Source of the DNA: Pedobacter sp. PACM 27299
Lineage (GTDB): Bacteria > Bacteroidota > Bacteroidia > Sphingobacteriales > Sphingobacteriaceae
Direction of reading: 5' to 3'
Assembly (NCBI RefSeq): GCF_001412655.1
Contig: NZ_CP012996.1
Span: forward strand, 5,270,001-5,334,000
DNA length: 64,000 nt
Position numbers and translations under genes: made by a program. Positions 14,085 through 36,337 of the stretch are shown here, piece after piece (the first letter of the stretch is position 1; every line of letters begins with the position of its first letter). The notes under the pieces were generated by a model. The model saw only the letters and a program-made list of their open reading frames with translations, ran no database searches and was not told the DNA's origin.

Positions 14085-16079
14085 TTATTTCTTGATAATT
14101 TTAAATTCAGTTCTTCTGTTGAGCTGGTGTTCCGCATGGCTGCATTTCACACCATTTCCACATTTATTGAGTAACATCGTTTCTCCGTATCCTTTGGCAA
14201 TGATGCGGGAATGGTCGATCCCATGGTCAATGAGGTATTGTGCCGCAGCATTTGCCCTTTTTTGAGATAACCATTGGTTGTATTGATCTGCTCCCCTACT
14301 GTCGGTATGCGATCCAAGTTCAATTGAAATTCCTGGATTTTCCTTTAGAATGGCCAGCAGTTTATCCAGCTCTCTTGCTGCATCTGGCCTAATGTTCGAT
14401 TTATCGAAATCATAATAGATGTTTTTCAGCACATAGGTTTTACCGGGTTCAAACTTATCTTTATCCAGGAAAGCCTGTATGCTTAGCGTATCAGATTTAG
14501 TCAATCCTTTGGTGCTTATACTTTTCAGGTCTTCTGAATATCCTGGTTTACTAAAGGCCACTTTATAGTCCTGATCTTTGGTTAAATTGAAGAAGAAATT
14601 TCCATCCTGAGCGGTTGCTTTACTGGCTACCTGTATGCCATTGCCATCGGTTAAGGTCACCAATACCTCATTCAGGCGTGCTTTACTTTGCTGGTCAAAT
14701 ACGGTTCCTGACAATGCCAGTATCATCAGCGGAGGGGTTTGATCAGAGAAGCTGTAAATATCATCGTCTCCAGCTCCTCCCTTTCTGTTAGAAGAAAGAT
14801 AACCAAATTTACCATCCTTGGTATACAGGTAAAAATCATCGCTGGTGGAGTTCAACGGATACTTCAAGTTTTCCGATTTACTCCATCTCGTTTTCTCACC
14901 CGTGCTTTTATAGATATCATATCCTCCCATTCCGATTTTCCCTTTAGAGGCGAAGAACAATGTTCCATCGGGACCTATGGTTGGGAAAGCTTCTTCTTCT
15001 TCTGTATTAATTTCTGGACCGCAATTTACGGGTTTGGCCCAGTTGCCGTCTGACTGCTGCTCACTGAACCAGATGTCTGACTTACCGAATCCACCTGGCA
15101 TATCTGAAGCGAAATAGATTAGCTTTCCATCATTAGAAATGGCAGCATGTCCCAGGGAATATGTTTTTACATCATTGTAAGGAAAAGATTTCAGCTCCCA
15201 TTTATCACCGTTTTTGCGGGCTGTTAACAATTCCAATCGACGGGTATATAAACGATCTCCGCCTTTTGTTTTATCTAAGGGGATATCTGCCGCAGGTGCT
15301 CGGGTGGCAATGGTGACAAAAGCTGCATCGCCAGTGTGATTAAATACGACTGGCCCTACATGGTATTCTGCTTTGGCAGGCATATTGGCTTCCGTCACGA
15401 TTGGCAGTTCTCCCTTTAACTGGCCATCAGCGGTTGCGCTGAAAAGTTTTAACCAGGGATTTCCATTCCATTTATACAAGTCGCTGCCTTTGGTTTCTCT
15501 GGCTAAGGGACGTTCAGAGGTGAATACAAAACCGTTATTGCCATCCGTACTCAAGCCCCAGTCCGCGGCTTTGGTATTCAGCGACTCCATATTTTTAATC
15601 TTGATGTCTTTTGGCATTTTGATCCATTTGGCAGCACTATCACAGGAAGCGATCTTTAGAGTTACTTCTTTTGGCTGGCCAGTAATCTGACCATACTTTT
15701 CATATTCAGCCTTAGCGAGGTCAAACTTTTCATTTCTTTGCAGCGCTTCTGCATAGTAGTAATGACTTAAAGGGCTGGCTTTCGGATTGGCGACTGTTTT
15801 CGCGTACCAATTTTCGGAAGCTTCATAATCATTCATCATCCGATAGCAGGCTGCAAGTTTCTCCAATAGTTTCACATCAGGATTCTTCCGCTCTGCCAAT
15901 GGCAGATACAACCTGGATGCCGGATAATACTCATAGCGGTTGAAAAATACATCCGCCTGTTGCTTCCTGCTCAGCTGTTCCTGGGCCATTGCCTCATTTC
16001 CTAAAAATAGCGCCATTATTCCGATGATCAATAACCTCGTTATGGAACGATCTGGACTTTTAAATGCTGTTGTACTCAT
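14085..16079 (-). CDS. OmpA-family protein with TPR and beta-propeller repeats (PorE-like T9SS accessory)
   Basis: A 664-residue cell-envelope protein. It has a signal segment ending near residue 33 (MALFLGNEAMAQ), TPR-like helices at about 35-140 (YYPASRLYLPLAERKNPD and following), PD40/WD40-like propeller repeats at about 190-440 (IYFASDMPGGFGKSDIWFSE, LFFASKGKIGMGGYDIYKS), a carboxypeptidase-regulatory-like beta domain at about 455-540, and a C-terminal OmpA peptidoglycan-binding domain with SHTDSRGADQYNQWLSQKRA. This order matches the PorE-type proteins of type IX secretion. It is the last gene of a three-gene operon, 15 bases after the PorP/SprF gene. It probably anchors the adhesin export or display apparatus to peptidoglycan. 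Confidence 0.88.
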   Translation of the reverse strand: MSTTAFKSPDRSITRLLIIGIMALFLGNEAMAQEQLSRKQQADVFFNRYEYYPASRLYLPLAERKNPDVKLLEKLAACYRMMNDYEASENWYAKTVANPKASPLSHYYYAEALQRNEKFDLAKAEYEKYGQITGQPKEVTLKIASCDSAAKWIKMPKDIKIKNMESLNTKAADWGLSTDGNNGFVFTSERPLARETKGSDLYKWNGNPWLKLFSATADGQLKGELPIVTEANMPAKAEYHVGPVVFNHTGDAAFVTIATRAPAADIPLDKTKGGDRLYTRRLELLTARKNGDKWELKSFPYNDVKTYSLGHAAISNDGKLIYFASDMPGGFGKSDIWFSEQQSDGNWAKPVNCGPEINTEEEEAFPTIGPDGTLFFASKGKIGMGGYDIYKSTGEKTRWSKSENLKYPLNSTSDDFYLYTKDGKFGYLSSNRKGGAGDDDIYSFSDQTPPLMILALSGTVFDQQSKARLNEVLVTLTDGNGIQVASKATAQDGNFFFNLTKDQDYKVAFSKPGYSEDLKSISTKGLTKSDTLSIQAFLDKDKFEPGKTYVLKNIYYDFDKSNIRPDAARELDKLLAILKENPGISIELGSHTDSRGADQYNQWLSQKRANAAAQYLIDHGIDHSRIIAKGYGETMLLNKCGNGVKCSHAEHQLNRRTEFKIIKK

Positions 16080-16094
16080 ATAATTCTGTACCGC

Positions 16095-17090
16095 TTAAAA
16101 ATAACGTGGACTTAATACCCTTGCTTTTTTGCCAGGGAAACTCATACTCAATGAAAACTCATGTGATCCGCTTTGGTAACTGGAAAGCTTGCTGGTGGTG
16201 TAGTCATAAGAATACCCCAGGCGGAAGCGGCTGCTCATCTGCAGCTCCACAATCCCGGCAATGGCATCACTATGACTCAATCCCTGTTGCAGGTTTTTCT
16301 TATCCCATAGGGCGACTCCTGTGCGGTAGGAAGCACCCAGCCAAACCACTTTACTGATCAGCAGGTAGGCGTTTAAATCTAAATTTGTAGGTCCTTTAAA
16401 ATCTTCTTTCAGCATAAAGCTAGGCTTTAGGTCTAATGATTCTGATAAAGGAATCATGACTCCACCGGTCACATACAGGTGCCGTACCTGGCGCAGTACT
16501 TTATAATCTCCTTCGGTAGCGATGTCATCCGTTCTCAATCCGGATAGTAAATCCAGCACCGAGGCACCGATATAAAATTTAGGCGTATAGAAGTAGACAC
16601 CTACCCGTACATCCGGTCTCAATTTACTTTCATTTCCTATCGGAATCACTCCATCTCCCAAGTCTGTAGAGATGAATTTTGAACCATCCAAATTATACTG
16701 AGTGGCCCCTGCTCCGATACCAAAGCTCAATCTTTTGGTGTCTTCCGCATCCAGCTGTAAACGGTAAGCATAATTCACATAAAAGGCAGAGGTATTCTGC
16801 GGTCCCAGGCGATCGGTGGAAGCAATAAATCCGAGTCCCATCTTCTTACCTTCCTGATCGGTTAAACCATCAAAAGAGGCTGTTCCAGTACGCGGCGCAC
16901 CATCAATACCTACCCATTGCGAACGGAAGCTAAAATTAGCGGTCCATTCTTCTTTGTAACCTGCATAAGCGGGGTTGACTGCTAAGCCATTAAAAACATA
17001 CTGACTAAACTGGATCGTCTGCTGTGCGTATGCACTGCTCATACCAAGTACGAGCAGTGATACTAAACCATATTTCTTTAAATCTCTCAT
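16095..17090 (-). CDS. PorP/SprF family type IX secretion membrane protein
   Basis: A 331-residue outer-membrane beta-barrel protein of the PorP/SprF family, with a signal peptide ending near residue 22 (SSAYAQQ). The family pattern is clear: QTIQFSQYVFNGLAVNPAYAGYKE near the start, then SQWVGIDGAPRT, then alternating strands and a C-terminal strand. Members usually sit beside the genes of large T9SS cargo proteins with type B sorting domains and are needed for their secretion or surface attachment, as SprF is for SprB. Here it follows the giant adhesin by 22 bases, which fits that pairing. Confidence 0.92.
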   Translation of the reverse strand: MRDLKKYGLVSLLVLGMSSAYAQQTIQFSQYVFNGLAVNPAYAGYKEEWTANFSFRSQWVGIDGAPRTGTASFDGLTDQEGKKMGLGFIASTDRLGPQNTSAFYVNYAYRLQLDAEDTKRLSFGIGAGATQYNLDGSKFISTDLGDGVIPIGNESKLRPDVRVGVYFYTPKFYIGASVLDLLSGLRTDDIATEGDYKVLRQVRHLYVTGGVMIPLSESLDLKPSFMLKEDFKGPTNLDLNAYLLISKVVWLGASYRTGVALWDKKNLQQGLSHSDAIAGIVELQMSSRFRLGYSYDYTTSKLSSYQSGSHEFSLSMSFPGKKARVLSPRYF

Positions 17091-17112: not shown

Positions 17113-20100
17113 CTACCTTTTAATAAATAACCAACCTTTAAACGGTGTTGTCGTACCCGATTTCTCTCTTCTCAAAATCAGGTAATAGTAAGTACCCTCA
17201 TTTAACTGACTACCATTCCAATCGTTGTTATAGTTGTCGGAGCGGTACACCTCATTTCCCCATCTGTTAAAGATAGTGACCTGAGTTCCCGGATAATTCT
17301 CCAGTCCTTTGATTTTGAAAGTATCATTGCTGCCATCACCATTTGGCGTAATGATATTCGGAATAATGAAATCGGCATTGTCTACAGTTGTGGATACGGT
17401 GTTACTACTTACTTCCGGAGTTCCCGAAGTAGACAGCACCCTTGCCGTATTCTCCAGTTGTCCAGTAAATGATTTCGATACCGTACCTATAATTGTCAGC
17501 ACAATTTTATTTGCTGTTCCTGCCGGAAGATCTGCTTTCAGCGTTACATTACTACCTGTACCTGTATCACCGGAAAGAATCTTTCCAGTACCAACTGCTT
17601 CTGATGTCCATTTTACATTTTGAATAGCTGAAGGTACTAAATCCGTGATCGTTAAATTATCCGCATTACTTAGGGAAGGATTTACTACTGTGACCACATA
17701 AGTAATGGTTTCACCAGATTTCAGTTGTGCCGGACCGGTTTTACTTATACTCAGCATTGGCGTTTTAGTTACTATAGTTTCTGCTGGTGGCGTTACTACT
17801 GGCGGAATGCCCGGTTCTATTGGTTTTGCAGTTGCGATATTACTCAGTGTTCCTGCGAAACCTGCATTCACCGTACCAGTTACCGTAATGGTTATTTTAT
17901 TATTGGTACCAGTTGCGATATCTCCTGTTACTGCCACCGCATTGCCTGTTCCGGTTGCACCCGCGGTTACTGCGGCCGTTCCAGCAGTGGTTGCTGTCCA
18001 TTTCACATTGGTAATATCTGCAGGTACGTTATCGGTGATCAACGTTCCTTTTGCATTACTCAATCCTGTATTTCCAACTTCAATTACATAGGTAATATTT
18101 GCACCTGCAGTGATCGCAGCCGGACCGGTTTTCTTAATGGTCACTGATGGCTGTGCAACGGTCACCGTGGTTACCGGCGGCGTTACTACCGGCGGATTAC
18201 CCGGTTCTATTGGCGTTACTGTAGCTGTATTACTCAATGTACCCAGATAAGCGGCATCTACTTTTCCGCTCAGATTGATCACTACACCATCACTGGCACC
18301 TGCAGGAATCGTTGCTGTTACGCTTAACGCATTTCCTGTTCCTGTTAGTCCTTTGCTGATGGTTGCTGCTCCATTAGTCACAGCCGTCCAGGTTACCCCG
18401 GTTAATTGCGCAGGCACCACATCGCTGATGACTGCATTTTGTGCTGTACCCGGACCGTGGTTGATTACTGTAATCTGGTAATTCATCAGGCCACCGGCAG
18501 TCACTGTTGCAGCTCCTGTTTTAGTGATTTTAAGCGCCGAAAGGCTGGTTACCGTTGTACTCACTTGTGCATTAATCACTGGTTTATTCGGATCTGCAGG
18601 CGTTAATGTGGCTTTATTAATCAGCGTTCCGGCATAAGTAGGATTTACCTTACCGCTGATGTTGACCAGGATGCTGCTATTTGCAGGAACATTAGCTGTT
18701 AGTGCTACTGTATTCACATTACCCGTAGCTCCTGAGCTGATGGTCGATCCATTGATCAGACTGGTTGTCCAGGCAACATTCGTTACCGCAGGATCCACTA
18801 CATCGGAAACTTTAACACCTATGGCATCTGATGGTCCGTCATTTTTAATGGTCAATGTATAGTTGATGGCTTCCCCTGAATTTAAAGTACCAGGCCCACT
18901 TTTCACCAGACTTAAGCTTGCATTATTGACAATACCGGTCGTTACTGTATTAGAAGGAACTGTTGGATTACCTGGTTCTGATGGCTTAATTGTAGCGGTA
19001 TTGCTGATATTTCCTACTGCTGTACTTCCCGGAACCAATCCGCTGATATTTACAGTAACGGTTCCATTTCCGGCTGGAAGATCTGCTGTTACTAGTACAT
19101 TATTACCTTGTCCTGTTGCACCTGAATTGATGACTGCAGCACCTGAAACAATTGTTGTCCAGCTTACATTGGTCAATTGAGCAGGGATCACATCGGCAAT
19201 CTCTGCATTTAGGGCATTACCCGGACCAGCGTTATTAATCGTCAGTGTATAACTCACCGTTTTACCAGCTTCAATGCTATTCGGTCCTGTTTTCACGATT
19301 TTCAGTGCCGATTTATTCAGGACATTCGTGGTTACCGGAGGGGAAGTCACTGGAGGATTACCAGGTTCTGAAGGCGTTACTGTAGCTGTGTTGAGGATTG
19401 GTCCACTGAAACCAGCATCGATTGTACCATTGATGGTAATCGTTACCTCTGCGTTTACACCTGCAGGAACATCTGCATTTACGGCTACTGTATTTCCTGT
19501 TCCACTGGCTCCGGAGTTGATCACTGCATTACCTGTTGCCGCAGCAGTCCAGCTTACCCCTTTAATACCTGCCGGCACTACATCCATGATCTGTGCCTGA
19601 CTTGCATTACTCAATCCATTGTTGCGTACTTTGATGGTGTAAGTGATTGCGGAGCCGGAAATTCCATCCTGAGGACCAGCTTTGCTGATTGTTAATCCAG
19701 AAACAGAACTGATTACTGTTTTCACTTCGCTGGTATTGTTCGCCAAGTTAAAGTCGACCATATTTACCGGTAAAGTTACCGCAGCGATGTTACTGATATT
19801 TCCAGAAGGTACATTGGCGTTCACCGTACCATTCACTGTTATCAATACATAATTAGCTGCACCAACTGGCACATCCGCATTTACTGATACTGCATTCGTG
19901 GTACCTGTTGTTGGTCCATTCACACTGGCATTACCCACCGCTTGTGCCGTCCAGCTGAGTTGTCCGATTTGCAATGGAACATTGTCTTTGATGGTCAATC
20001 CGACTACATCTCTTGGTCCCTGATTCGTTACTTTAATGGTATACGTAATTGCAGACCCGGAGATCACTGCCTGTGGACCAGATTTTTCGATCTTAACATC

Positions 20101-23100
20101 TGTTGACTGATTCACGGCAGTCACTACAGAACTTGTGCGTTCTCCGTTGGCAGTTACAGTAACCGTATTTGTAAACACGGCATTGGCTGTAGTCTTTACG
20201 GTTCCCGTTACGGTAATCAGCACCGTAGTATTCACATTGCCATCGGCAGGAATATTTGCGGAAGTCACGATCGAATTGGTCGTACCTGAGCTTGCTCCAT
20301 TTAGTGTTGCTCCACCTGTAACCGTAGCACTCCAGCTCGTTACAGCTACATCAGCAGGCACCGGATCGGATATCATTGCATTTAAAATATCTCCTGCACC
20401 ACCGTTTCTAACTACAATTGTATATTGAATTGGATCGCCAATATTTACTGTTGCCGGACCGCTTTTCGAGACTTTCAGTACCGGATCATTGTTAATGATC
20501 GTTGGTACCGTACTTGTATTTGAACTCAGGTCTGGATCAATGATCAGGCTGCCCGAAGGGAAATTAGCGGTTGCCGTATTCGTGAACACTGTTTTATCTA
20601 AATTATTTGCTTTTACTTTTCCGATGATACTGATTTCGATGATACCTGTTCCTGAAGGAATACTTCCAGTGAGGCTAAGGTCTCCTGTTCCTGAAGCCTG
20701 GCTCAGCGTTGCTCCACCTTGAAGTGTACTTGTCCAGGTTGCTCCAGCTTCCAGATTCGGCGGAATCACATCATTGATCAGCACGCCAATCGCATCACTT
20801 GGACCATCATTTACGATGCGTAAGTTGTAAGTCATCATTTCTCCAACTCCAATATCGGCAGGACCTGATTTACTGATTCTCACATTTGCTATTTTACTGA
20901 TGGAAGTTGTTACGGTACTGCTTCCTGGTGTTGGGTCTGTTACTCCAGCTTCCGGCGTTGCTGTTGCGGTATTGATCAGACTGGTTCCTGCAAAGTTTGC
21001 ATTCACTTTTCCATTGACCACAATCTGTACGTTTGCCGTTCCGGCTGGGATTGCTGCGGTTACACTTACATTGCCAATTCCATTGGCTGGGCCACTGATG
21101 ACCGCGCCATTTTGGCTGGTCGCCGTCCAGTTCAGTACTGTAAAACCAACTGGAAGATTGTCGGTAATCGTTGCAGCAGTCACATTACTTGGACCTGCAT
21201 TTTTCACATTAATCGTATAACTGATGTCTGAACCTGCAACAACTGCGGCAGGTCCTGTTTTAGTGATTTGCAGATCTGCAGTTTTAACCACACTTGTGGT
21301 TACTTCTTCAGAAGGTACTGGTGGATTTCCAGGTTCTGCAGGGGTAGCGATAAAGCTATTTTTCAGTGTTGCACCGGTATAACCTGGGTCTACCAATCCT
21401 GTAATCAACACAGTTATTGAATTACCTGCACCTGCTGGAATGTTCACACTTGGGTTCACTGTATTTCCATTTCCCGTACCATTTGCAGCTATGCTTGCGG
21501 TACCAGCAGCATTGGTAGTCCAGCTTACATTGGTAATTCCTGCAGGAACCACATCACTGATTGCCAGGTTAAGGGCATCGCCTGGGCCATCATTATAAAC
21601 CTGTAGGGTATAGTTGATGTTTTCACCGGCAGCAACCGAGGTTACTGCAGATTTCAGGGCTCTGATACTGACCTTATGGTCTACTGTAGTGGTAATGGTA
21701 TTTGAAGTTACCGGAGGATTACCTGGTTCCGACGGTGTAGCAGTAGCCACATTTGTGAGCGAACCTGCCGCCGCCGAAGCTGGCACTTTTCCGTTAATGG
21801 TTACTAAAATCGCATTCGCGGCACCTGCAGGAATATCAGCGGTTAGCAGTACATTGTTACCTGTACCATTTGCGCCTGTTAATACTGAAGCTGTTCCTTG
21901 TGTGGCCACCGACCAGGTTACGCCCGTCAAGCCTGCTGGCACTGCATCAGTAATGCTCAGGTTACGTGCATCCGAAGGACCATTATTTCCTGCCAGCAAG
22001 GTATAAGTAACCGTCTGACCTGCTGAAATTTGTGAAGGACCTGTTTTAATCAGACTCACTGAGGATGCAGATTTTAAAGTAGTCGTTACTGTTGAACTTG
22101 CAGGAAGCGTTCCGCTTTCTGAAGGTGTAATCGTTGCTTTATTAACCAGGTCTGCTGTTGCAGCCGGGTTGACCGTTCCTTTAATCGTGACCAGTATCAT
22201 ATTGGCTGCACCTGCAGGAACATGTACATTCATAGATAAGTTATTCGTATTTCCTGTTGCACCGCTCACAATACTTGCCGCTCCTTGTGCCACTGCGGTC
22301 CAGCTAACCCCTGTAATATTTGCAGGGATGGCATCCGTGATAGTGGCATTGTTGGCATTGGCTTTTCCAGTATTGCTGATACTCAGCGTATAAATGATCT
22401 CCTGACCTGCAGCAATTGTATTAGGTCCGTTTTTCGCAATGGCCAATACTGGCGTCTTGCTGACAATGGCCGTAGTTGAAGCATTTACGGGAACCGTATT
22501 CGGCTCTGCTGGGGTAGCCACTGCAGTATTGCTTATGTTGCCATTGTACGAAGGATCAACTGTTCCTTTTACCGTAATGGTAATCAGGTTATTTGTTCCT
22601 GTAGGAATATCCCCTTTTAAAATCAAGACGTTTCCTGTACCGCTGGCACCAGTATTGATTACCGCAGTTCCGGAAGCCGCACTTGTCCAGCTTACATTGC
22701 TCAGCAATGCAGGTATTGCATCTGTAATGGTCAGTCCGGCTGCATTACTCAATCCAGTATTTCCTGCAACAATTGTATAAGTAATTTCTGATCCGGAGAT
22801 GACCGCAGCAGGACCTGTTTTAACCAGTGTAATTCCTGGTTTGGCATCTACTGCCGTTTGTACTGGCGGTGTAATTACATTAGGGAAATTAATTAATGGT
22901 ACTGCAATAGAGGCCGCATTTTCCAGTGTTCCGGAGAAAGCAGGGTTCACTGTTCCTTTTAAAGTAATTGTGATTTTATTGCTGACATTACCTGCCGGAA
23001 TATTCGCGGTTAGTACCAGGAAGTTACCTGTTCCTGTACCACCGCTAAGAATCGATGCTGTTCCTCCTGCAACTGAGGTCCAACTTACATTCTGCAATGC

Positions 23101-26100
23101 AGCAGGCACATCATCCACTATGGTTACTCCGGAAGCATTACTCAATCCGTTGTTTACCGCAGTAATTATATAAGTTACCTCTGCTCCTGCCGTAGCTGTA
23201 GGCTGTCCGGTTTTAGTGATCACTACAATTGGTTTCTGATCGATATTGGTTTCTACAGGGTTACTATTTACAGGAACAATACCTGGTTCTGCAGGCGTTG
23301 CAATGGCCATATTGACCAATTTACCTTGCGCTGCCGGATTGATCGTTCCAGTAATACTGATGCTGATCTTATTCGCTGCACCAGCAGGGATATTTGCGTT
23401 CAGCACTACATTTCCAGTACCAGATACTGCACCATTGATGGTACTGGTTCCTGCTGTACTAGCCGTCCAGGCGACCCCGGTAATTGCCGGATCAATCTGA
23501 TCGGTTATGTTTAGGTTTTTCGCATTACTCAAACCAGTATTACTTACTTCTACTACATAAGTGATGGTACCACCGGCAGTAGCTGATGCAGGGCCTGTTT
23601 TATTGACTACAATTACCGGCACCTGGTTCACTACCGTTTCCACTGGCGGCGTTACCACTGGTGGAACTCCTGGTTCTTCAGGTGTAGCAGTTGCCGAATT
23701 GCTCAATGTCCCTGCAAATGCCTGGTCCACTGTACCTGTGATGGTAATCGTTATTTTATTAGCCGCACCAGCTGGGATATTTCCTTTAACCAGTACTGCA
23801 TTTCCAGTGCCCTGATTACCGCTGATGATGCTGCTGCCACCAACGATACTGCTGGTCCAGCTTACATTTTTAATATTTGAATTTACTGCATCTGAAATGA
23901 CCAGATTACTGGCATCACTTAATCCTGTATTATTCGCTTCAATGGTATAACTGATTTGTCCGCCAGCTGTAACTGTTGCCGAACCTGTTTTACTGATATT
24001 GATTTCAGGCTGTTTGGTCACCACGGTTTCTACTGGTGGGGTGACCAATGGTGGATTCCCTGGATCTGCCGGAGTTACTGTAGCGATGTTACTTAACGTA
24101 CCTGCATAAGAAGCCAGGATGGTTCCGGTTACTTCAATCACGACTTCGTTTTGCTGACCTGCAGGAATGTTGGCTTTCACACGTAAAGTGTTGCCTGTTC
24201 CCTGTGCCCCTTCTGTAATCACTGCAGCTCCCAGTCCAGTTGCTGTCCAGCTTACGTTTTGCAGCGGTACCGGAATCGCATCCGTAATCAAGGCATTTAG
24301 TGCAGTACTCGGTCCGTTATTGATCACCTTAATCTGGTAAGTCATCACCTGGCCTGCAACTGCGGTATTGACCGCACTTTTACCAATCTGTAGATTCGTT
24401 AATTTACTGACTTCTGTAACCGCCACTGCATTTACAGGCTGTTCGCCTGGTTCCTGCGGGCTCAACAATGCAGTATTGGTAAGTGTTCCTGTGAATAAAG
24501 GATCTACTGTACCCTTCACATTTACCAGGATCGTTCCGTTCAATGGAATATCAGCCGTTAAGTCGATATTATTTCCAGATCCTGTACTTCCATTGGTAAT
24601 TGCAGTGCCACCAGTTACCGTACTCGTCCAGCTCACATTTTTGATGTCTGCCGGAACCGCATCTGTTAACCTTGTTGCAATAGAATTTGAAGGACCTGTA
24701 TTTTTAATGGCTAGTGTATAAGTGATGTTCTCTCCTGCATTTAAGGTTGGAGGGCCTGATTTGGTTAAGCTCAGGGTCACATCTTTTACAATTCCAGTAG
24801 TCACTTCATTAGAAGTAACCGGTGGATTATTTACATCAGGAATTGCGGGTGCTATTGAGGCCGTATTGCTTACCGTAGACAACTGGCTGTTTGCCGGAAC
24901 ATCTGCCAGGATCGTAACTATCAGATTTCCTGAGCCTGCTAAGAAATTAGCAGTCAGTGATACCGGATTTACATTTCCTGTTGCACCTGCAGTTACTACT
25001 GCACCAGTAGTAGCTGCCGTAGTCCAGCGCACATTAGTCAAGCCTGCAGGAATCTGATCAGTGATGACCATGCCTACTGCATTACTTGGCCCGGCATTGC
25101 TTACTAATAACTGGTATTGAATTGTTGTTCCTGCAGCGACACTTGATGGCCCGGTTTTGACGATACTCAATGCTGATTTATTCGTGACGTTAGTCGTTAC
25201 ATTTTGGGAGGTTACCGGAGGATTGCCAGGCTCTGCAGGTGTTGCTACTGCATTGTTTAGCAGCGTACCTTGAAAGCTAGGGTCGATTGTTCCTTTGACC
25301 ACAATGGCCACCTCATTTCCTGCACCTGCCGGAATATCCGCGGTTAGCGTAACCAGGTTATTTGCTCCTGCAGTTCCTGTTGCACCTGCAGTAATGCTGG
25401 CTGCTCCAATCTGACTAGAGGTCCAGGTTACATTTTTAACATTTGCAGGAACAGCATCAGTAATTACTGTACCTACCGCATTACTTGGACCGGCATTCGC
25501 TACGATAATCGTGTAGCTGATTTCAGCTCCGGCAACTGCATCTGCTGGTCCCATTTTACGAACCGATAATCCAGATTTTGAAGCCACCGTGGTGGAAGCA
25601 GTGCTGGTATTATTGGCCAGGTTAAAATCAGACACTCCTGCTGGAAGCGTCAAGGTTGCAACATTATTAATGGTAGTCAGATTCGTAGCTGGATCAACTA
25701 TACCCTGAACATTAATTAAAATATAATTGGCAGGGTCTGCATCAATTGAGGCAGTAGTTTGGATGCCATTAGTCGTTCCAGTGGTTGCTCCGGTTATCGT
25801 TGCCGTTCCGAAAGCAGTAGCGGTCCAGCTTACATTTTGAATGACTGCTGGAATCACGTCTGAGATGCTCAGACCGGCCACATTGATCGGACCGTCATTA
25901 CCTACTTTGATCTGGTAAGTAATTGGAGCACCTGCAAGAATACTTTGCGGTCCATTCTTCTCTATATAAACATCAGTAGAGGCGTTTAAGGCAGTCACCA
26001 CCGCACTTTCTTTGATGCCATTTGCTTCTACAGTTACCGTATTGGTAAAGGTCGCTTCGGCAGTAGTTTTCACTATGCCCTGGATGGTCAAGAGGATAAG

Positions 26101-29100
26101 AGATGGATTGCCTCCAACCGTAGCTGGGATATCACCATAAGTGATCACGGCATTACCCGTACCAGAAGCCGTTCCATTCTGTACCCCTTCTATAGACGCC
26201 CCATTTGATGCCACTGCAGTCCAGCTGCTCACTGCCACTGAATTAGGCACCACATCGGTAATAGCCGCATCAGTGATGTCGCTCAATCCATTATTTTTAA
26301 TTTCTATGGTATAAGTAATCGGATCGCCAATATTGATCTTGCTTGGTCCGCTTTTCGATACGGCTAAATTTGTTTCCACAGTTACGGCAGTAGTCACAGC
26401 GCTCGTATTAGAACCTGGATCAGGATCTGTAACCGAACTTCCCGGAGGGAATAGCGCAGTGGCTGTGTTTATAAAGGCTCCCGTAGCAGCCGGACTCACT
26501 GTTCCCTTAATGGTCACTTCTACTACCCCTGTTTTGGAAGGTATATTTGCGGCAAAAGCTACATCCCCGGTTCCAGTAACCGTATTGTTTACTGCTCCAC
26601 CGTTTAATGCTGCTCCTGTTGTGGCTATAGCAGTCCAGGTTACATTGGTTACAGGAGTATTTTGAATAGAAGAAAGCAGATCTCTGATCAATACACCTGG
26701 AGCCAAGCTAGGTCCATCATTCACAATTCTTAAGGTATAAGTAATTGGCTGACCGGCAGTAATATTTGCCGGGCCAGATTTAGTAATTCTTACATTGGCA
26801 GATCGGCTAATCGCGGTTACCACTGTACTTGTTGCCGGCGTTGGATCTGTTACACCTGCTTCCGGAGTTGCAGTGGCGGTATTTGTCAACAGCGTTCCTG
26901 TAAAACCAGGATCAATTGTTCCGCTTACAATAATCGTTACCGTTCCAGAATTCGCAGGAATAGCTGCCAGCACGTTGATGTTATTTGTATTCCCAGAGGC
27001 TGGGTTAGAATTGATCACTGCACCATTTTGAGCTGTGGCAGTCCAGGTTACCCCTGTAATTCCTACAGGAACCTGATCCACAATAATCGCATTCGCGGAA
27101 TTAGATGGCCCTGCATTGTTCACTGTAATTGTGTAACTGATCGTTCTTCCTGCAATCGCTGCTGCGGGACCTGTTTTTGAAATCTGCAGGTCTGCGGTTT
27201 TATTGATGAGAGTAGTGGTGGTATTTGAAGTTACGGTAGGATTTCCCGGTTCTAAAGGAGCAACGGTGAAGGTATTGACCAATTGTGTTCCTGTAAAATT
27301 AGGATCTACTTTACCGGTCACTGTTACCAGAATTACATTAGTGTTCCCTGCTGGGATATTAGCACGGATACTCAGGGAACTACCTGAGCCTGTTCCGCCA
27401 GAAATTACTGATGCAATTCCTGTAGCAGTAGTCGTCCAGTTGACATTCGTAATGCCGGCAGGCAGCTGATCTGCAATCAATAAGTTCTGCGCATCACTAG
27501 GACCGGTATTTTTTACTTCTAAAGTATAACTGATGTTCTCCCCTGCCGAAAGCACTGCTGTTGCAGATTTAACGGCAGCGATGGTCACTTTTTTATTAAT
27601 AGTAGTGGTAATCGTATTTGAATTTACCGGAGGCACACCTGGTTCCGACGGACTAGCTTTAGCCACATTGCTGAAAGCAGTGGCTGTGGTATTTGATGGC
27701 ACCAGACCAGTGATGGTCACCAGAATTCTATTCCCTGCACCCGCAGCGATGTTTCCAATAACGGTGACACTGCTGCCTGTACCAGTTGCGCCTGTAGTAA
27801 TTGCTGCGCTACCTTCTGATACTGCGCTCCAGGATACGTTGGTTAATGGAACTGGAACGACATCGGTAATGTTCAGGTTAGTTGCATTCGAAGGGCCAGT
27901 ATTGCCAGCAATCAGGGTATAAGTAACTATTTGACCGGCGGCGATCTGAGAAGGACCAGATTTAGAAATGGTAATTCCCGGAACCGATTGTAAAGTAGTG
28001 GTCACCGTAGAGCTTGATGGGTTAGCACCTGCTTCTGATGGGGTGACCGTAGCTGTATTGACTAAATTTCCTGTTGCAGCTGAATTCACATTTCCTTGTA
28101 CATTTACCCTGATCACGTTTGTGACTCCTGCAGGGATATTGGCATTAAAGGTCAGGGCATTTGTATTTCCCGAAGCAGTACCTATAATTACTGCTGTACC
28201 TCCTGCATCGGCTACTGCCGTCCAACTTACATTGGTAATTCCTGCTGGAATCGCATCTGCAATCGTAGCATTTAAAGCATCTGCAGTTCCAGTATTGCCA
28301 ATTGTTAAAGTATAGTTGATTTGCTGTCCCGCAGAAATCGTTGCAGGACCTGTTTTTTGTATGGCCAATACCGGTATTCTACTAATGGTGCTGGTACTTG
28401 TTGCTGTTTTAGCCACCGTTCCAGGTTCGGCTGGAGTAGCAGTAGCGGTATTGCTCAATGTTCCGTTAAATGATGTATTGACTTTACCTTTCACCGTAAG
28501 GGTAATGGTATTGCTGGCACCTGCCGGAAGGTCTGCATTCAGGCTGATTGCGTTTCCGCTTCCTGCAGCAGTACCATTTATTAAAGCGGTACCTCCTGCT
28601 ATTGCCGACCAGGTTACTCCTCCTACAGTTGCAGGTACCTGATCTGTGATCACCAATGCTTTCGCATCCGATGCACTAAAGTTATTTACGGTAATGGTAT
28701 AGGTAATATTTTGCCCGGCCACCAATGCGGCAGGTCCGGTTTTAGTAATGCTCAATTCTGGTGTACGCGTTGCAGTAGTCGTTACTGAAGAGCTTACTGG
28801 TGTTGCGGCACTTTCTGTAGGCGTAGCCGTAGCGGTATTTAAAATACTGCCGCTAAAGGCTGGGTCGACCGTCCCTCTAACAGTCAGGGTAATTTTATTG
28901 GCTGCTCCTGCTGGAATGTCTCCGGTTAGGGAAAGGTTATTTCCAATTCCGGTGGCCCCATTGTCTATCAATGCTGTTCCTCCAGTCGCAGCAGTCCAGG
29001 TTACATTTTTAATACTGGCAGGCACCACATCTGCGATGACTAAATCTACCGCATCCGAAACTCCGGTGTTGCCCACAGTTATCGTATAGGTAATCTGGTT

Positions 29101-32100
29101 ACCAGCAGTAATTGTAGCCGGGCCCGTTTTCAGAATACTTAAGGCTGGCTGTCTAGTAGCAATACCTGTACTAGTTGCTGATTTCACTACCGTTCCCGGT
29201 TCTGCGGGTGTAGCTGTTGCGGTATTTGCCAAGGTACCTGAAAAAGCAGCACTCAAGGTTCCACTGATATTGATCACAATTTTATTGGCCGCTCCTGCTG
29301 GAAGATTTCCGGTGACGCTAACTGCATTAGCGGTTCCGTTTCCTGTCCCAATTACTGAGGCTGTTCCTTGTGTACTGGTGCTCCAGGTCACATTGCTCAG
29401 TTCGGCAGGCACTGCATCTGTGATGACTAAAGCTTGCGCATCCGCAGTGCTAGTATTGGTTACGGTAACCACGTAGCTGACCTGCTGACCGGCAACTAAG
29501 GTAGCTGCCCCTGTTTTAGTAATCGTTAATACTGGTGTACGACTCACCTGAGTAACCACGATAGAACTTGATGGGGTACCTCCAACTTCTGAAGGAGTCG
29601 CGATAGCCGTATTGCTAATTCTGCCGCTGAATGATGGATCAACAATACCATTGATCGTTACCAAAATTGCATTGGCTGCGCCTGTTGGTATATTTCCATT
29701 CAGACTGATGGCGTTATTTCCACTACCAGCATTTGGACCGATAATGGTTGCCGTACCTTGGACTGTTGCGTTCCAGGTTATGGTTTTTATACTGGCAGGT
29801 ATCGCATCGGTGATACTTGCATTTAAGGCATCACTCAATCCGTTATTTGTAATTTTCAAGGTATAAGTAATTGCAGTTCCTGCCTGCGCATTGGATGGTC
29901 CGTTTTTCAGCATCACCAATCCAGATTTGCTGGAAACTGTAGTGACTACCGTATTGGAATTTACTGGCGGCACATTTTCTACAGGTGTTGCGGTTGCGGT
30001 ATTACTGAAGCTTCCTGTTGCAGAAGGCAATACAGTTCCAGTCACATTGATGACTACTGTATTGGTTGAACCCGCAGGAATCGTTGCTGTAAAGCTGATG
30101 TTATTTCCGGTATTACTGGTGTTCCCTGTAAAGGTTGCTGTACCGGTTTTACTAACCGTCCAGTTCACATTATTAATTTGTGCAGGAATCAGGTCTTTAA
30201 TGGCAGTACCAATGGCATCACTGGTACTTGTATTTTTGACAATAATTTTATAGGCGATGGCATCTCCTGCAATTACATTTGCCGGGCCGTCTTTCTCGAT
30301 CACCAGTACTGGTTTTCTATCCACCGGACTGGTTACTGTAGAAGTTGCCCCATTCGGATCTGGAATAATTGGAGAAGTCACCGTAGCTGTATTTACCAGG
30401 TTACCGGAGTAATTGGCAGCAACGGTACCGTTCACATCAATAGTGATGCTGTTACCAGCACCGAAAGCCAGGTTACCTGTTATATTTACGGCATTCCCGG
30501 AAGAAATATTCTGAGTAATTGCAGCGGTCCCCATGGCATTGGCACTAATGGCCAATACGGAGATATCAGCAGGTACATTGTCTAGTAGTTTTAATCCAGT
30601 AGCATCACTTGGGCCATTATTGGTAGCTACAATGCGATAAACAATCGGTTGTCCGGCAACAAATGGCCCCGGAGTCACTACCGATTTCGTTACTTTAATA
30701 TCTGCACTTCTGGTATAGGTGATCACGACTTCATCTGAAGAAGCGGTACAAGTACCGTTAGTTACTGTCCAGATTAAGGTTGCCGTGGTTCCTGGCGCGA
30801 TAGTGACCAGCGTATTTGCTGCGGCTGGTGTGGCAATTGTTGCAGTGCTTCCTGCCTTAACAGTCCACACCCCGGTTCCTGACGTTGGCACATTAGCATT
30901 CATTGTGAATGCAGCACTATTATATTGAGTGATATCCGGACCTGCGTTGGCAGTGGTTGGATTATTGAAATTTGTCAGGGTTACGTTACTTACTGAAGAC
31001 GGGCAAGCGCCGGCACTGATGGTCCAGGCTAGTGTTGCTGTATTTCCTTTTACGACAGTCGCCGTTGTATTTGCCTGATTAACATTCGCAATCACGGCTT
31101 GTCCAGACACTACTGACCATACGCCTATTCCTGAAACCGGTACATTTCCGTTCAGTTGGAATAAGTCTGTAGCACATTGCTGTTGGGTAGGCCCTGCATT
31201 CGAAGGGGTAGGGGCAAGATCTATATTGATAATCACTGGAATACTGATAGAAGTACATGAACCAGAAGTCACTGTCCTCCGGAATAGCGTCTTTTGAGAC
31301 ACAATCCCAGGAGTTAAATTAACAGTATTGCCACCTACCACGGTGAAAGTATTACCACCATCGATACTGCTTTCCCATTTGTAAACATAAGTTCCACTGC
31401 CACCAGAAGGTATTGAACCCGTAATTATACCAGGATCGGATGGTCCGCAATAAGCAGTTACTACTGGAGTAGTCAATACGTTTCCAGAAATGGCTGGAGT
31501 TACTGTAACGCCAACTACCGGACTGCTCACCGGACTACAGCCTGAAGCGGCTGAAATCACTGTTCTTCGGTAATAAGTAGTTTGTGTAATTGGGCTGCTC
31601 GCAGTATAACTGATTTGTGTAGCACCTGCAATGTCAGCAAAACCAGTAGTTGCACTAGTGGTACTGCTTTGCCATTGATAGGCATATATCTGATCTCCGC
31701 CGGCAGCAGGTGTTAATTCGTTGAACGTAGCCGGTGTACCACTCTGGCAGAATGCTTGCGCTGCACCGATTGTACCTGCAGTTAATACCGGATTTACAGT
31801 AAACTTGATGACGTTACTGATATTCGCTACTGTACAAGCTCCTGATGTAGCCAGGCGGCGATACCAGGTGGAAACGGTAATTGGTCCCGGATCATAATTC
31901 ACTGCGGTTGCTAAAGCAATATTAGTATAAGTCACATTGTCCGTACTGAATTGCCATTGATAAGCTGGGTTTCCGGTGCCTCCAAGTGCTGCGGAACCAG
32001 TGATCAATCCAGGATCACCTGTCCCACAAAGAGACAGACTAGCTGGAGGAACAATCGTATTTGAACTGATGGCTGGCTGAACTGTCACAGTAACCACATT

Positions 32101-34281: not shown

Positions 34282-34386
34282 TTGATTAGCGAAGAATGGT
34301 AAAATCAACGAAAATGTTGTTTCTAGAAATTTGGATACAGAAGATCCTCGGGCAGAAGCCGAATTGAGAGGTAATTTTGTAATCAT

Positions 34387-35032: not shown

Positions 35033-36337
35033 TTACATCGCTACTTCAATCTTCACCTTTTTGTTTTTAATTTTTTCATTATTTAAAGCAGCCAGTACCC
35101 TCCCTACCATGTTTCTTTTTACAGCCACATAAGAAGCGGTATCTTTCACTTCAATCAGTCCAACATCATCTTTTTCAAGACCACCTTTTTTAAGTAATAA
35201 ACCAACGATGTCAATTTTATTAACCTTATCTTTTTTACCTGCAGCGATGTATAAAGTTTGCCACTGACTGTCTTTAGGCAGCGCAAAGCTACCTTTCAGG
35301 TTCTCCGTCTCTATATCTGCTTTCAGAAATGGGTACTTCTCATCATCAGCAATCACTAGGTAGGCCGTTCCTTTTGCATTCATACGGGCAGTACGTCCGT
35401 TACGGTGCAAGAACGCATCTTCTGTATATGGCAATTGGTAATGAATGATGTATTCTACCTCAGGAATATCCAGACCGCGTGAAGCCAGATCCGTTGTGAT
35501 TAAGATTTTAATACTTCCATTTCTAAATTTCAGCAAGGCACGCTCACGCTCATCCTGCTCCATGCCACCGTGGAAAATATCGTGTGCCAAATCTTTGTCG
35601 ATCAGCAAATCACTGATTCTGTCTACTGTTTCCCTATGGTTACAGAAAATCAAAGTAGTTTTATTTCCAATTTTACAGATCAATTGAAACAAGGTGTCCA
35701 ATTTATCTGCTGCGGTAGTCAGCACCTTTTTCAGTTTTAAATCTGGTGCTACCTTTACATCTTTCAGAAAATCAATTTCCACCGGTTTTTTTACCCCTGT
35801 AAAATCAGGAATCTGATCCATTGCTGTAGCTGAGGTCAGGATTCTTTGTTTTAAAGAAAGTAATTTTGCAATGATATAGGCCATATCCTGTTGGAAACCG
35901 AATTCCAGTGCCTTATCGAACTCGTCTAACACTAAGGTGTGGATCGGAGATTCATCGAAATTTTCATGACGTAAATGATACGCTATTCTTCCCGGTGTAC
36001 CAATTAATACCGCCGGTGGTTGTTCTAAATTATTTCGTTCTGTTTTAACAGGGTGCCCCCCGTAACAGCAGTTCACTTTAAAACCAGTTCCCATCTGCTT
36101 GAATACCTGCTCAATTTGTAAAGCAAGTTCACGAGAAGGTACCAGCACTAAAGCCTGCACTCCTTTTACATCTGCATTGAGGTTGTTCAATAGAGGAAAC
36201 AAAAAGCCTAATGTTTTACCAGAACCTGTAGGTGCCAATAAAACCACGTCACTTCCTTTTCCGGTCGCCGCAAGTGATGCCTGCTGCATCTCGTTCAAAG
36301 AAGTAATTTTTAATTTCTCCAGTATCTTTTCTACCAT
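35033..36337 (-). CDS. dbpA: DEAD-box RNA helicase, DbpA-like
   Basis: A 434-residue ATP-dependent RNA helicase. Motifs in order: Q-motif region, Walker A APTGSGKT near 35-42, Ia PSRELALQ, GTPGR, motif II as DEFD (not the usual DEAD), SAT, and HRNGRTAR near 311 for motif VI. The C-terminal 70 residues (IDIVGLLLKKGGLEKDDVGLIEVKD, YVAVKR) match the DbpA RNA-binding domain, which targets hairpin 92 of 23S rRNA during large-subunit assembly. Length is near the usual 450-460. A -7 element is only about 10 bases from the ATG, suggesting a very short leader. Use of the symbol follows the C-terminal domain and is family-level. Confidence 0.85.
   Translation of the reverse strand: MVEKILEKLKITSLNEMQQASLAATGKGSDVVLLAPTGSGKTLGFLFPLLNNLNADVKGVQALVLVPSRELALQIEQVFKQMGTGFKVNCCYGGHPVKTERNNLEQPPAVLIGTPGRIAYHLRHENFDESPIHTLVLDEFDKALEFGFQQDMAYIIAKLLSLKQRILTSATAMDQIPDFTGVKKPVEIDFLKDVKVAPDLKLKKVLTTAADKLDTLFQLICKIGNKTTLIFCNHRETVDRISDLLIDKDLAHDIFHGGMEQDERERALLKFRNGSIKILITTDLASRGLDIPEVEYIIHYQLPYTEDAFLHRNGRTARMNAKGTAYLVIADDEKYPFLKADIETENLKGSFALPKDSQWQTLYIAAGKKDKVNKIDIVGLLLKKGGLEKDDVGLIEVKDTASYVAVKRNMVGRVLAALNNEKIKNKKVKIEVAM

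Follow-up and report, generated by a model that had tools for sequence, protein, structure and literature searches.

How a bacterial surface protein comes to carry the same ordered series of unlike domains twice is the question raised by a giant adhesin gene of Pedobacter sp. PACM 27299. The gene lies in a stretch of 64,000 nucleotides (RefSeq assembly GCF_001412655.1, contig NZ_CP012996.1, positions 5,270,001 to 5,334,000 of the forward strand), referred to here as the window, and encodes 34 DUF11 modules in tandem. A preliminary description of the sequence had proposed that modules 7–19 recur one for one, and in order, as modules 22–34. We found the repeat at the proposed offset of 15 modules, with a matched block of 12. 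Very probably, an ordered block was duplicated internally in the ancestor of the clade of adhesins at the dbpA locus, after which the two copies (blocks A and B) diverged and the unit was used again. The parts of the adhesin open reading frame (ORF), with amino acid (aa) positions where needed, are as follows.

17113..34386, minus strand: giant adhesin ORF of 5757 aa, with an N-terminal region, 34 DUF11 modules and a CHU_C sorting domain
30709..34386, minus strand: N-terminal region (aa 1–1226), with two DUF11 matches over the cut-off
28378..30708, minus strand: modules 1–6, outside the repeated block
23623..28377, minus strand: block A, modules 7–18
25579..27198, minus strand: landmark four-module cassette of block A, modules 10–13
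22456..23622, minus strand: spacer modules 19–21, which mostly match slots 18 and 33 and one another best
17764..22455, minus strand: block B, modules 22–33
19705..21282, minus strand: landmark four-module cassette of block B, modules 25–28
17392..17763, minus strand: module 34, a separate C-terminal module
17116..17391, minus strand: CHU_C / type B sorting domain (PF13585, TIGR04131)

Offset-15 stripe in the module array

The 34 modules span aa 1227–5665, and two further DUF11 matches fall in the N-terminal region (aa 328–468 and aa 477–595); all 36 matches listed at the adhesin locus pass the DUF11 (PF01345) cut-off, and the profile search divided modules 7–19 into 13 DUF11 stretches. A hydrophobic stretch is visible by eye near the N-terminus, and neither Pfam nor NCBIfam recognised an adhesive domain in aa 1–1229. 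The modules are 28–65% identical to one another in an all-against-all comparison, and no tandem repeats with a period of 500 bases or less were found in the window.

When the all-against-all matrix was averaged by offset (using the earlier border of module 28), mean module identity was 51.3% at offset 15 and 29.3–44.0% at all other offsets. For a run test, row and column means were subtracted, the border of module 28 was corrected, and module order was shuffled 2,000 times. The best run of 13 pairs started at module 7 with an offset of 15 and a residual z of 3.22; the shuffle maximum was 1.58, and none of the 2,000 shuffles was as good. Matrix and shuffles together bear out the proposed stripe, and the array thus has the multi-module autocorrelation peak with pairwise order kept that marks a super-repeat.

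Within the single protein, nine of the 12 pairs from 7/22 to 18/33 are mutual best hits, the remaining pairs having ranks of 1 and 2 (13/28), 2 and 2 (14/29), and 6 and 1 (16/31), and none of the six pairs from 1/16 to 6/21 is a mutual best hit. Slot averages were also taken over nine genomes, consisting of the window genome and eight relatives. This averaging resulted in 11 of the 12 pairs being mutual best, with 18/33 (57.0%) marginally under 18/19 (57.2%). Pair 19/34, with which the proposed correspondence had ended, has ranks of 3 and 2 and a z of 1.8 in the single protein; it found no support in the nine-genome slot matrix, and neither did any matched run longer than 12. Across genomes, module 34 is nearest to module 5 (46.4%), then to 33 (46.2%) and then to 19 (43.4%), and module 19 is nearest to 18. 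The correspondence therefore stands for modules 7–18 and 22–33 and falls for 34, which does not pair with 19. Twelve modules make up the matched block, and three spacers (19–21), which match slots 18 and 33 best or almost best in the nine-genome averages, complete the 15-module period. The duplicated block had been put at about 1,974 residues, which is the module spacing at 7/22 (1974 aa, and 1953 aa at 18/33); the matched blocks themselves measure 1,585 aa (A) and 1,564 aa (B).

Four of the motifs cited as module-specific, namely EAGVTDPTP (modules 10 and 25), DFNLANNTS and STDV.IEK.GPQ (13 and 28), and SAL.IVKTGP (15 and 30), are found at no other place in the protein. The fifth, a KTTA..FTNTV linker in modules 12 and 27, has no match as written and is present when three residues separate KTTA from FTNTV. 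Modules 11, 13, 26, and 28 close with a D...NTS-like linker and many others with a proline-rich EPG-type linker; modules 12 and 27 have neither type.

The same test was applied to 69 array rows, some of which are the same array fetched twice. In 10 of them, the window gene and nine relatives, the best run was at offset 15 and all 500 shuffles were beaten. One of these, G160, passes narrowly (2.56 against 2.39), and its mean-offset order is 1, 2, and then 15 because of copies of slot 33. The array of G080 by itself gave no stripe; its contig stops inside the gene. At offset 12, an array of Chitinophaga arvensicola (L134) lies narrowly above all 500 shuffles (2.12 against 2.09) and one of C. skermanii (L129) shows a weaker pattern (2 of 500 shuffles as good), which perhaps reflects a separate old block duplication. 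Weaker offset-5 patterns were seen in G072, G068, and L098, the last being a second copy of the G068 array (3 of 500 shuffles as good in each of the three), and in L122 (5 of 500).

Age of the blocks and reuse of the unit

A set of 145 genomes of the genus, one per species, was searched with the 10–13 cassette, which matched 56 of them at an E-value of 0.001 or better. Among the matches listed, two cassettes lie 5.86–5.91 kb apart in the window genome (G000) and in G101, G142, G081, G122, G159, G153, G160, and G109, and four copies occur in G076. The named sequences closest to the cassette come from Pedobacter, and the modules of the nearest fetched adhesin (G101) are 89–99% identical to those of the window. 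The orthologue comparison called for in the preliminary description yielded relatives with one, two, and four blocks.

Block copies were placed in a tree of the cassette (45 rows) and a tree of the 11 slots 7–17 (33 rows). In both trees the B copies of the clade group together, as do the A copies of the nine genomes; in the slot tree, the nine A copies form one clade (100/99) and fourteen B copies another (100/100). The species order is almost equal inside the two clades. As the A and B copies fall in two separate cross-species clades, the duplication predates these species. Separate duplications in the four-genome group of the window or in G109 were rejected by approximately unbiased (AU) tests. 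A constraint that unites A with B loses 563 log units for the former (p-AU 2.7e-96) and 218 log units for the latter (p-AU 3.2e-39), the tested groups having been chosen after the tree was seen.

The DNA copies have diverged, as had been noted, with an A/B identity of 59.1% and a nonsynonymous divergence (dN) of 0.40 in the window. Third-position identity between A and B is 39.5%, and the corresponding value for unpaired modules picked at random from the adhesin is 36.4%; with third positions so near the unpaired level, dating A against B at the DNA level is uninformative. Between the window and G101, the ratio of nonsynonymous to synonymous divergence is about 0.09 in both A and B and 0.13 in the other modules. 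That the event is old and the order has been kept is supported by the stripe, by the cross-species trees of block copies, and by the one-block relatives.

Many other Pedobacter and some Chitinophaga arrays appear, from their module order, to have one ordered block. Outside the clade, the cassette has one distinct place in 20 of 23 rows, with an identity of 47.1–57.8% compared with 41.3–46.5% for the next best place; the rows without a single distinct cassette are G094, G010, and the second ORF of G102. Slot profiles found an exact 10-11-12-13 run in 36 of 52 non-clade arrays, one run each, a proportion that is biased because most of the arrays were fetched by this cassette. Flanking slots were counted with the clade arrays (14 rows) set aside and the 16 arrays lacking the exact run omitted. 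Slots 7 (17/35), 8 (22/35), 16 (26/35), and 17 (20/34) are best at their expected distance, compared with 4–6% elsewhere, as is slot 14 in 15/36 (background 10%); slots 9 (9/35), 15 (5/35), and 18 (1/34) are far less clear, and slots 4 (0/35) and 6 (1/35) do not follow the order of the window. Several Chitinophaga arrays carry parts of the module order of the window. In the one-block genomes G006, G105, and G068, the cassette is still distinct at an array mean module identity of 61–62%, and in their contigs (L058, L061, and L062) it looks shielded from homogenisation among strongly alike modules. Three cassette relatives (L094, L103, and L137) sit in records labelled Flavobacterium (two) and Dokdonella, by transfer or contamination.

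The preliminary description spoke of a single block duplication; the duplication is supported, but not as a single event. The G076 adhesin is 10,894 aa long, has 69 module matches, including one in its N-terminal part, and carries four blocks whose cassettes are 18, 15, and 15 modules apart. Its last three blocks have a period of 15 modules (about 5,862 bp), and 20 of 30 comparisons between modules 15 apart gave 83–100% DNA identity, so that this lineage appears to have copied the 15-module unit again. At least two block-B copies in G080 group together in the slot tree, as sister to the block-B copies of G076. Single modules have also been copied locally, with eight copies of slot 33 in G160 (92.6–100% DNA identity) and three in G153 (about 93%).

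Origin of blocks A and B

From the stripe, the module order, the phylogeny, the repeated use of the unit, and the gene context, we infer the following course. The adhesin stalk consists of DUF11 modules that can be told apart and follow a set order. In an ancestor of the dbpA-locus clade, an internal in-frame tandem duplication of slots 7–18, probably together with the spacer 19–21, would have produced blocks A and B, spaced by 15 modules (about 5.9 kb), and the two would then have diverged separately under purifying selection. While copies were still alike, in-register recombination could have inserted or deleted entire 15-module units, an example being G076, and single modules would have kept multiplying locally at slot 33. 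The product would be a fibre exported by type IX secretion and anchored to the cell surface by the adjacent PorP/SprF protein and perhaps an OmpA-like protein, with the number of blocks setting stalk length.

Several points weigh against this course. The divergence between blocks A and B of the window has gone too far for the mechanism to be read from them. Block 1 of G076 and G080 has no settled place between A, B, and the base of the tree, its grouping with A being neither rejected (p-AU 0.242) nor shown, and the one-block G006, G105, and G068 branch at the clade base of the cassette tree in no resolved order, with loss of a second block there a possibility. The other 10 of the 30 comparisons in G076 reach only 55–72% DNA identity, and this mixture of identities makes the copies mosaics. 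The G080 copies could stem from a separate amplification or from a shared amplification followed by homogenisation. G076 and G080 are draft assemblies, and that of G080 is broken at repeats, as is that of G064. The OmpA-like neighbour of the adhesin is closer to another OmpA family than to PorE. Finally, the duplicated unit may have been 12 modules rather than 15.

This last alternative, in which exactly modules 7–18 were duplicated and 19–21 arose later through local copying of slot 18, is a serious one, although we consider it somewhat the less probable course. The resemblance of modules 19, 20, and 21 to 18 and 33 speaks for it, as do the local multiplication of slot 33 in G153, G160, and G076 and the arrays of G006 and of contigs L096 and L112, which close with a slot 17 or 18 module and then 34. 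The spacers are, however, present in all eight aligned relatives at 53% identity or more to the window, which makes them old, and the later copies in G076 hold the full 15-module unit. Fusion of two tandem full-length adhesin genes, the first having lost its C-terminus and the second its N-terminus, is improbable. Partners for a fusion can exist, since G024 and G092 each have two giant DUF11 genes close together. In non-clade arrays, however, the best match to the module that precedes slot 7 is slot 4 in 18/35, slot 5 in 4/35, and slot 6 in 1/35, and the module before 22 at the A/B junction is 21, with best matches to 33 and 18; moreover, modules 19–22 are contiguous without a gap and thus leave no sorting-domain or N-terminal remnant between the blocks. 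Chance or convergence among similar modules can be dismissed almost entirely: at 28–65% identity throughout, single pairs such as 19/34 can mislead, but no shuffle equalled the stripe, offset 15 recurs in nine relatives, and the clade structure and AU tests also stand against it.

Internal duplication of an ordered block is a known kind of growth; its ordered, old, and repeatedly used unit in a bacterial type IX stalk is the new part. Björklund and others reported that domain repeats often grow by several domains at once, and nebulin by seven (PMC1553488). As duplication of several domains is commoner than that of single domains in their survey, the suggestion that the adhesin goes a step beyond the usual single-module expansion did not hold. 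In nebulin (units of seven, PMC1553488) and titin, ordered unlike modules were likewise copied as a block; the adhesin differs in being bacterial, in its DUF11 modules and type IX sorting signal, and in having no known partner filament. The periscope proteins SasG, Rib, and Sgo_0707 are likewise surface stalks with a module number that varies between relatives, but their DNA repeats are highly similar and change in number between strains (PMC8201768), whereas the adhesin modules are 28–65% identical and the varying unit is the 15-module block. The window gene lacks highly similar tandem repeats, and blocks 2–4 of G076 come nearer to them. Literature searches, DUF11 papers included, turned up no earlier description of a bacterial stalk with a duplicated block, which does not prove that there is none.

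Secretion, locus, and stalk function

The genes around the adhesin are as follows.

14085..16079, minus strand: OmpA/PD40 protein, with best NCBIfam matches to CHU_0125-family OmpA and PorE, both below the cut-off
16095..17090, minus strand: PorP/SprF family protein, next gene after the adhesin
35033..36337, minus strand: DbpA-like DEAD-box helicase, the upstream landmark of the locus

The sorting domain scores 101.3 bits for CHU_C (cut-off 27) and 62.2 bits for TIGR04131 (cut-off 35). The gene is predicted to encode a DUF11 stalk destined for type IX secretion through a type B sorting domain. The window genome contains nine CHU_C matches, seven PorP/SprF matches, and SprA, so that both a linked PorP/SprF gene and a translocon gene accompany this putative type IX substrate; a search for GldJ gave only matches under the cut-off. 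Type B substrates bind a PorP-like partner, and a PorE-like neighbour has been proposed as the mark of fixed rather than gliding proteins (PMC9143113; PMC12618676). Like SprB-SprF and PG1035-PorP-PorE (PMC9143113), the locus combines a CHU_C/TIGR04131 C-terminus with an adjacent PorP/SprF gene, followed here by an OmpA gene whose likeness to PorE is below the cut-off. The OmpA neighbour scored 434.4 bits for the CHU_0125-family OmpA (cut-off 620) and 341.5 bits for PorE (NF052230, cut-off 600), which does not place it in PorE. If it were PorE-like, the proposal in PMC9143113 would make the adhesin fixed, not moving. The gene would encode a surface fibre that lengthens with the number of blocks; that the fibre is fixed rather than gliding is suggested less strongly, because its OmpA neighbour does not clearly belong to PorE.

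DUF11, named as a stalk domain in an earlier survey (PMC9210967), has been renamed CLIPPER, a stalk domain able to carry an Asp-aided Lys-Asn isopeptide bond, which some DUF11 domains lack (PMC12617251). Lys, Asp, and Asn are kept at three aligned columns in all 34 modules, with a Lys-Asp spacing of 33 in 33 of them, the same as for Lys 715-Asp 748 in the CLIPPER structure PDB 9IFR (PMC12617251). The Lys-Asn spacing is 91 in that structure and 95–104 in the adhesin modules. Sequence searches reached no solved DUF11 structure. The cassette was predicted as a string of beta-rich domains (mean pLDDT 91.2, pTM 0.61, 18 sequences). Foldseek returned integrin alpha chains as its best matches at a low query TM-score of about 0.3, a likeness of serial Ig-like domains that gives no clue to function.

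A match to dbpA is found in 140 of the 145 genus genomes (E 1e-150). The adhesin adjoins dbpA in G000, G081, G101, G142, G159, G153, G122, G160, G076, G080, and G064, and lies about 10 kb from it in G109, where a 2,196-aa ORF stands between the two (L147 429–7016) with repetitive ORFs on the opposite strand. The gene can also be lost. The close relative G128, with DbpA and ClpC 98.8% and 99.8% identical to those of the window, has lost it by deletion: adhesin and porP are absent, ompA is missing for the most part, and the 1,190 bp between dbpA and ROK (L143 1856–3045) retain 123 bases with 69% identity to the module 33/34 border and 386 bases with 87.6% identity to the end of ompA. No adhesin is present between dbpA and ROK in G035, where only 372 bp separate them (L144 18206–18577). 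Elsewhere in the window genome, a second giant CHU_C ORF of 4551 aa, with two DUF11 matches listed, has its own PorP/SprF gene (G000:C1:4174856-4176048 and upstream).

Accounts of how bacterial stalks grow often centre on near-identical repeats that are gained and lost; in this adhesin, dissimilar modules in a set order were copied as a block, which makes this a clear bacterial case of a mode of growth best known from giant muscle proteins. A bolder and rather unlikely extension would regard the stalk as an addressed structure like the super-repeats of titin and nebulin, with lasting slot identities, the 15-module unit as a functional ruler, lengthening by whole units in register, and the 10–13 cassette as a fixed functional element such as a binding site, joint, or docking place. 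The module order can be traced in part from Pedobacter to Chitinophaga, and living relatives have one, two, and four blocks. This natural series lends itself to the study of the evolution of stalk length, of the reasons for the conserved module order, and of a possible separate function of the conserved four-module cassette. The adhesin also offers 34 modules that all carry the predicted cross-link triad.

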